A program made the position numbers and the translations under genes. The notes under the pieces are model-generated. The model did no database searches and was not told where the DNA came from. It saw only the letters and a program-made list of their open reading frames with translations. A stretch of 64,000 bases of DNA, taken from Ptychodera flava (Eukaryota; Hemichordata; Enteropneusta; Ptychoderidae). This document shows, piece after piece, positions 35,101 through 44,100 of the stretch; the first letter of the stretch is position 1; each line of letters begins with the position of its first letter. The stretch is from positions 35,070,293-35,134,292 of the forward strand of contig NC_091933.1 of NCBI RefSeq assembly GCF_041260155.1, written 5' to 3'.

Positions 35101-38100
35101 CATTTAAACACAGCGACTGCTGCATTATCTAAGAACAAATTATCTATTGGCGGTGAGTCAATGACCTTGAACAAAATCTATTCTGTTTGGTTGATCGGTT
35201 TTTGAAAAATACGTGGTCGTCACAACGACATATTTGAATTTGTCTGATGTTCCATTCATAAAACAGTATACTCACTCCGTACATACTACAAATGTGTCAG
35301 TAACTCACAACGAAGAATCACGGGAAGCATCGGACGGCAAATTGTACACCATTTGCTCATATTCTGTCTGCCAAAAGTCGTTTACTCTGAGCCACAATAT
35401 AACAAGTTACAGAGTCTCTTAATCATTTACCTGCATGGCGCACAACTTTAGCAAGTTCTAAGATCACATATTTTCTCATTATTGATTAAAGTTTCACAAA
35501 GAGTTGTCTGCAGCATAACATTTAACGCTAAATATAAAAAATACAATTTCTAAACGAAATAGTACCCTTTACTCGTTGAACCTGGCCAACTCAACCTCTG
35601 AAGCTTTCATCGAGCCATGTGCATTAATTTGCGAATGAACTGACGTGACCATTTTCCAGCTAATGGGACACTGAAGTGCTAAATCTTCAGTTTTGTCAAC
35701 TTAGAAGAACTCAGATGTGAACTTTACCAGTTAGTACACTGTAACGCAAACATTGCCTTGGCGAATCCAAATTTTTAGAAAGAAAATTATTACCTGTTTA
35801 GTAATCACTTACTAAGATACTTGGTACTTGGATGGTAGATTCAAGTCAGTGTTTGGGATTGGAACAAGGGAAATCTAGGAACAAAACTTTAGCAAGGACA
35901 AATGCATCGAATCCATGCACTACTGAATACGTACCCTTGCCTGATAACCAGGTTCGGATTTTAGTACATATCTCCGTGATACAGAGGTGATATTTGATTA
36001 ATCACGCACAGTCACGAAGTAATTTTCACATAATAAAATAGATCATTTAGGGACACGACGATATACGCATTACAGTAACATGGCTCCAGATTTTTTGATC
36101 TGCAACTTAATCGATTACTTGAGACCGTCGATTTCGTTTTACACGAGGTCATAGTCCTACTACGGTGAGACTGTGGCTAGGTGTGTTAAAGGTGTCTCCC
36201 GGAACGATTTTGCAAAAGGGCAAGAGAGTCTAGGGTTTTTGCGCACTACATAGCAAGTAGCGATGGAAACTAAACTATCAGTAGTTACCGAGGGGAGGGT
36301 CGATGTTTATCGGAAAGACCCGGCGCGAAAAATAGCGACCCTCCTTATAATTTCTGTCCAGTCCCTTAGCTGTTTTCATGTGAGAACAGCATCGTAATAT
36401 TTGAGTTGAGGAAAATGCCTGGATTCTTCACCTCTGTTGGTACGAAACTATTAATCGATAAGACATAGCTTTTGAAAAACAGCATTTAAAAGGTGTATTT
36501 CTAAGTTCCACTTTTTCTATCGGTTATGAGTACTGTAGATATCATAGACTATTTACTTGGAACCTTACTAGCTGTTAATAGATGACGTCAAGGCCAGTCC
36601 GTTACCGTATTGGTCAATGACCGACACGTGAGACGTCCCATCAATGTCTGGGTGCTTTATGACACAACCATAATAATCCTCATCGTGGGTTTAGTCCGGC
36701 AGCCAAATCCACTTTTTGTCCCGAACCTTGTGTTAGGGTCTTAAGTTTTTTTTTAAACCGGATTTTGCTAGTCAAGATAACCAAAGTGAAAAAAATAGTT
36801 ACTGGATCTCCGTCAGTATTGAGCAATTTGAGATATTAGCATAAACAAAATGGCCGCCAAATTATCACAAATTACCATTGGAAGCAGTAGAAGTAGGCTT
36901 TATATTGTTAAAGTCTGCTAGTAAAAGCACATTTCTATTAGTGCTTCAACTAAAAAAAGGTTAGTAATCATAGATGAATAAATTTAAATACTAATTTGCA
37001 TAAATTAACACAAATTTATCACAAATTACCATTGAGAGCAGTAGAAGTAGGCTTCATATTGTTAAAGTCTGCTAGTTAAAGCACATTTCTATTAGTGCTT
37101 CAACTAAAAAAAAGGTTAGTAATCATAGATGAATAAATTTAAATACTCATTTTTAAATACTCATTTGCATAAATTAACACATAAACCAAACTTTATAGGA
37201 AAGCTTGAACTGTACCAAAGTAGATTATAAACAATGCTACAATGAATGCTAAATGAATTGGTGCGGAAAAGGGGAAGGCAGTTCCACACACCATACTTCT
37301 TTTGCGGATATTCAGTGTTTTTCTATGTTACTCGTAATATGTTTTATATTTTCGTCTTCTATAATTTTGGACACAGTGTTGGGACACTATGGCGAAGCAA
37401 AAAGTTTACAACTAGGTAACAGTAGGCTCCGTGTTTCATCAGCAGCTCTCTCAACATTATACACGTGCCCGAACACATATAACTGGTCTAATAACTGGCA
37501 AACGAAAATACCACAACAGTCTTACAAGGAATACAATCTCTAACAGAAAGAGACCAAATACAACAAGCAAAGAAGCTCCTCGGACGTTTCGAAGAAGAAG
37601 TCAAATAACAACTTACACATAAACTCAAAATATAACTTGTTAAGTACAAAAAACTACTTCCCCAGACCAAACCAAAGGGCTCTTTTCAGGGCCACCAAAT
37701 TTTTCAGCCAAAGAACAACCATTGAAATACGATGGCCAGGCCGCCATCATATTCAAATACACACAGAGAAATTTAACAGATTGAGGAAACTTCTCTGATA
37801 ATGGAAGCAAAAGAAAAGAATTAAGTAAAGAAACAAACAAAAATAAGACGCAAACAGGCGTACCAAATACAAATCCCTAAGAACACTAAATGTATTAAAT
37901 ATCTCTCGGAATATAAACAGCACGATTGGAACTAATTGGGATAATTGGATTTTCATATTTTGCGAATTTCTGAAAAGTGTACATGTTCGGTGCCATATAG
38001 CTGAATGTTGTAGTATCGCAAATTACTCATTTAAAACAAGTGTGTAATATAAAAGAAAAACGGATTATATTACATTTGAAGATTCAATCGACATTACGTC

Positions 38101-41100: not shown

Positions 41101-44100
41101 ATGTCATTCAAATAATATATGCAAATATTTATGTTCCAGTTTTCCGTCAGCAACTGCTTGGTGATTAAACGAGAAAAACAAAGTTACAACATGTATAAAG
41201 CCATTTGAGTCTTCTTTCTCATACAAAGTGCAATAAGCTGGCGGCCATTTTGATTATGCTAATTTTCTCAAATTGCTCAATGCTGACAGAGGGCCAGTAA
41301 TTAAATTCTTTTTTTTGGTGGTCTTGACAAACGAAATCCACCAAGAAAAAAACTTAAGACCACAAAGCAAGGTTTACCCCACTGGCTGCCGGACTAGTTC
41401 GACTATCGTTGATTTTTAGACGGACTTCTTCAGCATACCCTTCTGATGTCATGTTTTCAAGGACCTGCGAACATATGAAATCAAGCATAGGTATAAAAAT
41501 AGCATATCAAAAGATAGTACTTGTCAATCTCCAGCAATTTCATGGAACCTATGTCTACTATGAATAAACAAGTATTAGTGATTGAAAGTCCACAAGCAAT
41601 TGAGTTAAATGGTTGTCTCTGCGTCTGAGATAGTCGATGTGAAGTAACAAATGTGGGCAACATTAGTCAAATGTCGTGAACATTCCCTACTTCCACCATT
41701 TTCTTGTTTATTTGTGATTTTCCTGAGCATATATGATTCAGAGGCGCATCTGACGAATAGAGAGACTCACCATTGGCATGGTATCGTAGTTGTCTTTAGC
41801 ATATTTCACCGTGACTAAATAGATACGTACACCGTAGTATGGTGTTGGATAACACTATGTGTAAAATGCCTTTATTCGTTACATTTTTGTCCGATCGTAA
41901 TAGAGTATATTATTTACACAATATATGTTTTATCTTTCCGCTATATCTTTCAAACTGATTGATACGGTGTGCAGAAAAACGTCCATCGCACCATAGCCCT
42001 GAGAAACACTTATTTTCTCATACAAAAGTGTCTGTCCTGACTCACCCGCTTGCAGATTGTTGGAGCGGAGTTTCCTGTACCGTCCCAGTTCAGTTGAGTA
42101 TCATAATCTTTGCTCAGTTTTTAACTTCTTATTAATTTCTCCGATACTTATAAGTTTTAATAGATCTATGTTAATAGGAATTGCTGACTTTACCGCCTTT
42201 TTCTGTCGTAATAACGTATAAAGTAAGATTCCGAAAGGTGTGACGGCAATAAGAAATATCTGCACAATTTGCATTTATATCAGTTCGCAAAGCGGATGGT
42301 TATTACATTACGTCTTGATGTAGCAAACAAACGATCAGAACGATTTACGAGTTTTACCTCTTGGACATGAACTACATTGTCATCTGAGAGTTGAGAATGG
42401 TGAGTTAATGCAAATTTAGTGGCTTCCATCAACCTATGATGCCACAATAGAGCTTCATCTGGGGTACACGCCTCACAAGGGTTGATATTGTAACCTAAAG
42501 AAATCAAAAAAGTCTATCAGTCAAGAAGATGAATTGTGAACAACAAATAAGATAAAGAGTGTTCACGCAGTTATCATATTCTGATCTATGTCTGACTGCA
42601 TAATATGGTAAGAGGTGTTGCATCCTCAATATCAATGCGTATACAATTATCACGTTTTATGACTTAATCACTTTTTGGGGTCAATACAAGCAGGCAATAG
42701 AAAATAACTTATTGTTTGTTTTTGGTGTTGGTTTGGTTGGTTTGTCGGTTGGTTGGTTTTTGGGTTGATTTGTGTGTGTTTTATGACCACACGAATAAAG
42801 TACTGTATATTCAAAAATTCAAAGATTTCCTTGATAAGATGTACAGCTCGACGGCACAGGGAGAATGTGTGAACGAGGCATTGCTATAGCGATTTAAAAG
42901 GCACGCTCCACGCTGTTGATCGGCAGCCTTTCTCCACTCTCTAAGTTTTTAACGTTTTACCGCTTTTTACCAGTGAATTTCCGCGAAGTTTTTATACCTT
43001 CTGGTTTTTAAACATTTGCTGCCTTGGATTCGTCACAAAATCTCGAACTCTACCATGCTTGGAAGCAGTATTCGTTCAATTATCAATGTACGGCAGTGCC
43101 TGGGTGCAAGCAGAAGTTCTTTCAATATGGCGACGAAGATGTCCCTTTGTTCAGCTTTGCCTACCAAGTTATTTTTTCGACCACGTGGACGCAAGGCGGG
43201 ATGCAAGCATCCAAAGCCAAGGTATGGGATCCAAACGATTATAACTAATCACCGTGCTCCACACAGATTAGACACAAAAATTCACGTACAAGAGTACTTC
43301 GTCTGATTCCGGTCTCTTCACAAAATAATGCACTCAACGAGCATGCAATCGAAACCTTACTCACCACTCGCTCTGATACACAAACACCTGGATACAAGCG
43401 AACCTCCACACTTGTCAAAATTCCAAGAACGTCTTCCTGCTTCAACAAACTCAATCTGAACGCTGCTCTGTGGAACGCCCGTTCTCTGAACGGCAAAATC
43501 GGTGCTATCGCATCTACTTTGCTCGAAGGGAAATTGGACATCATGATTATCACCGAGACCTGGCTAAAGAATCAATTTGATCCTGTCATTGCTGAACTTA
43601 ATTCTGCAATTAGCGGGTATAACTTTTACCATCAATCCCGCTCTCAGCGAAGAGGAGGAGGGGTAGCTGTCTTGGCTCGTTCTAACCTACGACTTGTGGA
43701 AAAAAGATCAAAGATGTTCCAGTCCTTCGAATCGTTAGACGTGACATTTAAATCTGCAAGTCAGTTTCTACGTATTATATCGCTGTTTACCGTCCTCCAA
43801 AATCAACGAAGAATAAGGCGACAGTAAGTGGCTTTATCTCCGAGTTTTCCACTCTTTTGGAAACAGCCGTACCTTCCTCGGGCCATCTCTTAATTGCTGG
43901 AGATTTTAATTTTCCATTTGAGAACACAAATTCTTCCGACACAAGTAAGCTAATCGACCTTCTTCACTCAGTCGGCCTACAACAGCATGTCAAGATATCA
44001 ACACACAGCAAAGGCCACACATTGGATTTACTTATAACGCGATCATCAGAGCAATTGCTTCACTCCATCAAATCTGACAACTCGCTTAACTCTGATCACA

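Follow-up and report, generated by a model that had tools for sequence, protein, structure and literature searches.

A composite transposon in exon 7 of a gamma-glutamyltransferase paralogue of Ptychodera flava: a probable loss-of-function allele

Cut-and-paste DNA transposons disrupt genes by landing in coding exons. We analyzed a locus of this apparent kind in the hemichordate Ptychodera flava, within a stretch of 64,000 nucleotides (contig NC_091933.1) that we call the window. Here, exon 7 of a minus-strand gamma-glutamyltransferase (GGT) gene is split by a 4,705-bp element (36692-41396) bounded by terminal inverted repeats (TIRs). We consider it likely that a composite TIR transposon landed in exon 7 of a GGT paralogue and made a loss-of-function allele, its interior being older material that resembles a Penelope-like element and a miniature inverted-repeat transposable element (MITE). 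The locus is like other exon-disrupting DNA transposons in its TIRs, its short target duplication and a reading frame that is stopped inside the element. It differs from them in that three elements appear to be nested in one another here (the TIR element, a Penelope-like element and a MITE-like repeat), and in that the host exons look fresh.

Two other kinds of element provide useful comparisons. Some families of Introners have TIRs and short target-site duplications (TSDs), according to PMC9860276. Like Introners as described there, the window's element is inserted in a coding exon, and removing it with one TSD keeps the frame; unlike them, it has no splice site at its borders, and we can show no family of spliced copies. 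Among DNA transposons, Zator is given a TSD of 3 bp, and Harbinger and its relatives none or one of 1-4 bp, in PMC10045372 (for Academ and Zator, the passages of PMC11071193 do not state how long the TSD is). The 3-bp TSD at our locus is similar, but the element has no recognised transposase that could be compared, and no result links its TAGTCC start to a superfamily.

The ends of the element are well defined. The inverted ends, TAGTCCGGCAGCCA, are identical at 14/14 positions and start with TAGTCC, and similarity continues inward of them in inverted orientation (78% over 143 aligned columns). Perfect matches to the 14-bp TIR occur nowhere in the 64 kb besides the two element ends. Both flanks carry GTT, a 3-bp TSD that lies exactly at the exon break. 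The parts of the interrupted exon are as follows.

41397..41464, minus strand: GGT exon 7, first part (7a), 68 nt; it ends with one copy of the duplication, read as AAC
41397..41399: right-hand GTT of the target-site duplication
36692..41396: TIR element, 4,705 bp, with a 14-bp perfect TIR and no transposase recognised
36689..36691: left-hand GTT of the target-site duplication
36569..36688, minus strand: GGT exon 7, second part (7b), 120 nt; contains the catalytic Thr codon; donor CTA|GTAAGG

Without the element and one GTT, the two flanks of exon 7 make 188 nt, in phase with the neighbouring exons. We also considered a TA target duplication, as in Tc1/mariner-like elements, and rejected it. 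The GTT reading is favoured at the protein level, because the TA model gives a joined exon of 193 nt with in-frame stops. The heavy chain of human GGT1 aligns without a gap over the exon 7 join, and in none of 118 homologues (0/118) are there residues between the two joined codons. These homologues are the best 120 of 5,679 matching proteins (7,996 candidates scored), minus the P. flava proteins P0001 and P0002 discussed below; the queries for the homologue, Pfam and human GGT1 comparisons were a 515-aa model that lacks exon 1 and has an exon 3 shorter by two residues. The split codon corresponds to Thr in 60/118 homologues and to Ser in 58/118, and the next residue is His in 96; of the two models, only GTT recovers both the frame and this Thr/Ser codon. 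The protein is interrupted after residue 363, while the catalytic Thr has number 381.

A first-pass annotation of this DNA had claimed that a 4,705-bp TIR element with a GTT duplication cuts exon 7, and its coordinates, length and ends proved accurate. It had also held that excision with loss of one GTT restores the frame, and that the break lies about 19 codons before the catalytic Thr; both statements are borne out by the length, the phases and the residue numbers given above, as well as by the lack of a gap relative to the homologues. Its further claim that the joined codons read as a normal GGT has to be amended, since four highly conserved donor-site residues are altered in the joined protein.

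With the element and one GTT removed, the minus-strand gene runs from 58,815 to 32,119, and its 10 exons form a 570-aa open frame. The coding sequence (CDS) has 1,713 nt (570 codons and a stop), and the insertion is the only lesion in it: all splice sites are kept, and neither a premature stop nor a frameshift is present. Of the nine introns, eight have GT-AG ends; the one that follows exon 5 is GC-AG. In addition to exon 7, the exons are as follows.

58658..58815, minus strand: GGT exon 1; starts at the first Met of NCBI P0002, with P0002 residues 1-53 matched at 100%; donor AAA|GTAAGT
54360..54586, minus strand: GGT exon 2
52069..52258, minus strand: GGT exon 3; junction matches P0002
51661..51821, minus strand: GGT exon 4
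46485..46631, minus strand: GGT exon 5; GC donor AAG|GCAAGT
42358..42494, minus strand: GGT exon 6; ends in phase 0
34814..35048, minus strand: GGT exon 8
33408..33521, minus strand: GGT exon 9
32119..32274, minus strand: GGT exon 10; includes the stop codon; C-terminus ...GGYPAGF

The joined model, without exon 1, matches PF01019 at 498.7 bits over profile positions 3-512 of 512, and chains of human GGT1 (PDB 4gg2, 4gdx) align to both of its subunits. Thr381 corresponds to Thr in 118/118 homologues. A literature search combining P. flava with gamma-glutamyl gave no match.

When exon 7a is read into the element, the protein continues from ...NDSRT through 13 element-coded residues to a stop, which is codon 37 of exon 7. 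Because this stop lies upstream of the autoprocessing site, the read-through frame yields no small subunit, and the predicted product would be the large subunit alone, extended by a few foreign residues. We found no protein with a small subunit from the window's locus, either among the best 120 of the 5,679 matching proteins or among the 7 proteins obtained when exons 7-10 were used as the query. In these same sets, only P0001 covers exons 6-10 at >49% identity; in the exon 7-10 search it reaches 91%, and all others at most 38%. P0001 is an NCBI protein of P. flava (297 aa) that differs from the window copy at 23/297 residues. Its exon 7 is uninterrupted and reads NDSRTQDEDYYG. The P0001 model begins at an internal Met of exon 5, and its 5' half is missing or unannotated. 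The second NCBI protein, P0002 (P. flava, 296 aa), equals our gene model over the first 295 residues; it reads through the GC donor of exon 5 and ends ...IMKGK, and exons 6-10 are absent from it. NCBI models of P. flava are the best protein matches overall, and the agreement with P0002 identifies the window as DNA of this species.

The interior of the element has a layered structure, which adds to the description in the first-pass annotation.

36848..37112: subterminal repeat; 111 nt, present twice at a spacing of 154, the copies 91% alike
37267..40140, plus strand: putative nested, decayed Penelope-like element; inverted 76-nt arms (63/76 identical) and a remnant of reverse transcriptase (RT)
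37921..38133: MITE-like repeat within the Penelope-like element; 213 bp, with 30-nt inverted arms (93%)
40720..41386: subterminal repeat; two copies with a period of 342, 92% alike, the outer copy extending to the right TIR

We take the nested retroelement to be Penelope-like, an assignment made with moderate confidence from RT and GIY-YIG pieces of a neighbouring retroelement in GGT intron 4. The nested RT remnant aligns to the neighbour's RT in two pieces that are in different frames (E 1.3e-7, 25% and 33% identity), and the second piece has an internal stop. Similarity of the nested piece to the neighbour's GIY-YIG stretch consists of weak fragments (best E 0.002), and the nested RT piece has no Pfam match. 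The neighbour itself matches PF01541 (GIY-YIG), and its RT (49.7-50.1 kb) reaches 23.4 bits with PF00078, below the cut-off of 29.6. In the rest of the 64-kb window, the element is matched at one place: 180 bp of the MITE-like part (180 columns) align at 67% to 7707-7878; the inverted arms were not found at 7707-7878. The interior appears to be a decayed Penelope-like element that holds a MITE-like repeat. No transposase was recognised in a scan that covered part of the element: four translated pieces (one query badly joined) matched 0 Pfam families, and the remainder was inspected by eye in minus-strand open reading frames (ORFs) and in plus frames of 37,151-40,250. A 20-bp TIR pattern had 0 matches in viral contigs. 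In a literature search on Penelope-like elements and hemichordates, the word "Penelope-like" was not found among the matches listed.

The neighbouring retroelement (48765-51289) contains RT-like and GIY-YIG pieces, and its inverted arms of 328, 293 and 116 nt are 100, 99 and 98% identical. It may be a recent, palindromically arranged Penelope-like insertion.

The element's interior looks much older than the host exons, judging from the divergence of the nested arms, the RT in two frames with a stop, and the MITE-like repeat. An old interior and clean exons can be reconciled in two ways: the nest already existed when it jumped, all of it together, or the gene has been kept under selection by splicing. 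Because the interior is decayed while the GGT exons show no other lesion, we favour the former: the insertion is probably recent, with the element arriving as a ready-made composite and killing the allele. We simulated neutral decay of the CDS, using a simple model with assumed indel and transition rates, and the probability that it stays free of lesions was 0.27, 0.07 and 0.006 at 0.5, 1 and 2% neutral divergence. This probability falls fast with divergence; therefore, unconstrained GGT exons would have to be young.

The TIRs, the TSD, the reading frame, the otherwise intact gene, the decayed interior and the whole exon 7 of the paralogue are seen directly. From them, we infer recency, mobilisation in trans and loss of function in the animal, along the following course. 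A Penelope-like element of greater age, already containing a MITE-like repeat, would have come to lie within a non-autonomous or decayed cut-and-paste DNA transposon. The older nested elements would then have been carried along, which suggests that the transposon was mobilised in trans as a composite. With its TAGTCC... ends and 3-bp target duplication, it would have inserted into exon 7 of the P. flava GGT paralogue. Translation of exon 7 would now enter the element and stop after 13 residues, before the autoprocessing site, leaving no small subunit. Three donor-site residues would already have been changed in the paralogue pair, and the fourth in the window copy; these changes may be the reason that the animal could tolerate the insertion.

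These residues suggest that the GGT copy was possibly non-canonical before the insertion, since four highly conserved donor-site positions are altered. The window copy belongs to the same sequence family as human GGT1 but, besides its interrupted exon, departs from it by E420G, D423N, S452A and G474S. Among the 118 homologues, the human residue at positions 420, 423, 452 and 474 is found in 108 (E), 114 (D), 117 (S) and 118 (G), respectively. P0001 shares the changes at 420, 423 and 452, and within the pair G474S is only in the window copy; a Glandiceps protein, P0006, has N at 423 as the window copy does. Asn401, Ser451, Gly473 and the catalytic Thr of human GGT1 are kept. According to PMC6949936, Glu420 forms a salt bridge to the alpha-amino group of the substrate and Asp423 one to Arg107. 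Ser451 and Ser452 contribute to substrate binding, whereas the tetrahedral intermediate is stabilised by Gly473 and Gly474. Changing Ser451 or Ser452 of human GGT to Ala leaves about 1% of activity, as cited in PMC6769717. The same paper reports that these Ser to Ala changes in a Bacillus GGT did not lower activity and gave a slight gain. Membership in the GGT family stands on sequence grounds, but we do not claim canonical activity. By the time of the insertion, the lineage of P0001 and the window copy may already have moved away from the canonical GGT role, with the window copy having gone one residue further.

Several points weigh against a recent, disabling insertion. The arms of the nested element were perhaps not identical on arrival, and their divergence is therefore only a rough measure of age. 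In a relative-rate comparison with 10 outgroups, unique changes of the window copy outnumbered those of P0001 with 3 outgroups, were outnumbered with 5 and equalled them with 2 (ranges 1-4 and 2-6); this lack of faster decay fits recency, but fits a gene under selection equally well. An empty allele was not seen, as a query with the 76-aa ORF of the empty exon returned 1 candidate that was not significant. Finally, the P0002 model goes no further than the GC donor of exon 5 and never reaches exon 6. Because it ends earlier than the insertion, its truncation alone is no proof of an effect of the insertion and may have another cause.

The first-pass annotation had left a choice between a recent loss-of-function allele and an element that is spliced out as a new intron. 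The former is the best reading, given that there is no other lesion in the 1,713-nt CDS, that exon 7 of P0001 is whole, and that no small-subunit protein was found; the latter is unsupported. If the element had become an intron, cryptic sites in the TIR and in exon 7b would remove it from most transcripts and give a slightly altered GGT that is still processed, which we regard as very unlikely. The minus-strand end of the element does contain the donors CCA|GTGGGG (5.1) and GGG|GTAAAC (5.3). The real donors span -2.7 to 11.4, so both candidates fall inside that range, but they score below 8/9 of the real ones. These scores use approximate, untrained consensus frequencies in a scan within 700 bp of the borders. 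In the same scan, 8 splice pairs at most 700 bp from the borders are in frame and free of stops, and with the element turned round the score is lower, 3.7. However, the best pair scores 8.4, compared with 7.2-22.9 for the nine real introns, which is below 8/9 of them; its acceptor (3.3) is below 9/9 real acceptors, and 55/200 random inserts of 4,705 bp reach its score. Splicing at the two best pairs would also remove a net 9 and 5 residues from the stretch that directly precedes the processing site. At the borders themselves there is no GT or AG, and one GT lies 2 nt inside with a score of 0.4, so the splice sites at or beside the borders by which Introners restore the mRNA are absent. If the insertion were old and spliced, one would expect an aged interior next to intact exons, as is seen here, yet no small-subunit product of the locus was found in the protein sets searched. 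We give hardly any credence to the extended version, in which a composite TIR transposon is turning into a spliceosomal intron in a deuterostome, with donors supplied by its inverted end, an exon 7b acceptor, a shortened stretch before the autoprocessing Thr, and a gene kept under selection despite long-decayed passengers.

It is also unlikely, though less so, that the insertion came late and was neutral, in a paralogue that was by then relaxed or dying. The four changed donor-site positions, three of them common to P0001, would suit this explanation, as would the residual activity of the human Ser451 and Ser452 mutants (PMC6769717, as above). In contrast, the gene has no stop, frameshift or lost splice site besides the insertion and no overall excess of changes relative to P0001, and the Bacillus enzyme did not lose activity upon the same Ser to Ala changes (PMC6769717). 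Least probable of all is that an artefact of assembly or haplotype merging put the element in the exon. According to PMC11175523, which also names RNA-seq and Iso-Seq data, one male of the Penghu Islands provided the sperm for the published chromosome-level assembly of P. flava (PacBio, 60x), a diploid PacBio assembly treated with Purge Haplotigs, from which the window presumably derives. However, an exact 3-bp duplication and perfect TIRs at both joins are the signature of transposition, unlike a mis-join, and with 60x PacBio coverage 4.7 kb should fit within single reads.

Other features of the window were also recorded. A CLCA-like gene lies at 585-23700 on the minus strand, with two matches to PF08434 and a VWA piece below the cut-off; repeats 16.2-18.4 kb further on from CLCA-like stretches are 75-92% alike and suggest a tandem second copy. 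GGT intron 5 contains a piece of a PF03372 endonuclease (43400-43800, plus strand) from an apparent non-LTR (long terminal repeat) retrotransposon. Two copies of an apparent SINE-like (short interspersed element) repeat, with translations that are similar by eye, lie at 3568-3798 and 54855-55136. A tandem array with a 32-bp spacing (7941-8292) adjoins 7707-7878, where the relative of the MITE-like repeat lies.

Most likely, then, the locus represents a clean but familiar kind of gene-breaking insertion, in a paralogue that is perhaps expendable. It also offers a well-defined site at which the conversion of a transposon to an intron can be checked with RNA data. To all appearance, a GGT-like gene of a hemichordate has here been knocked out naturally and, if the site is polymorphic, it would provide a ready genotype test of whether a GGT paralogue with an altered donor site matters.

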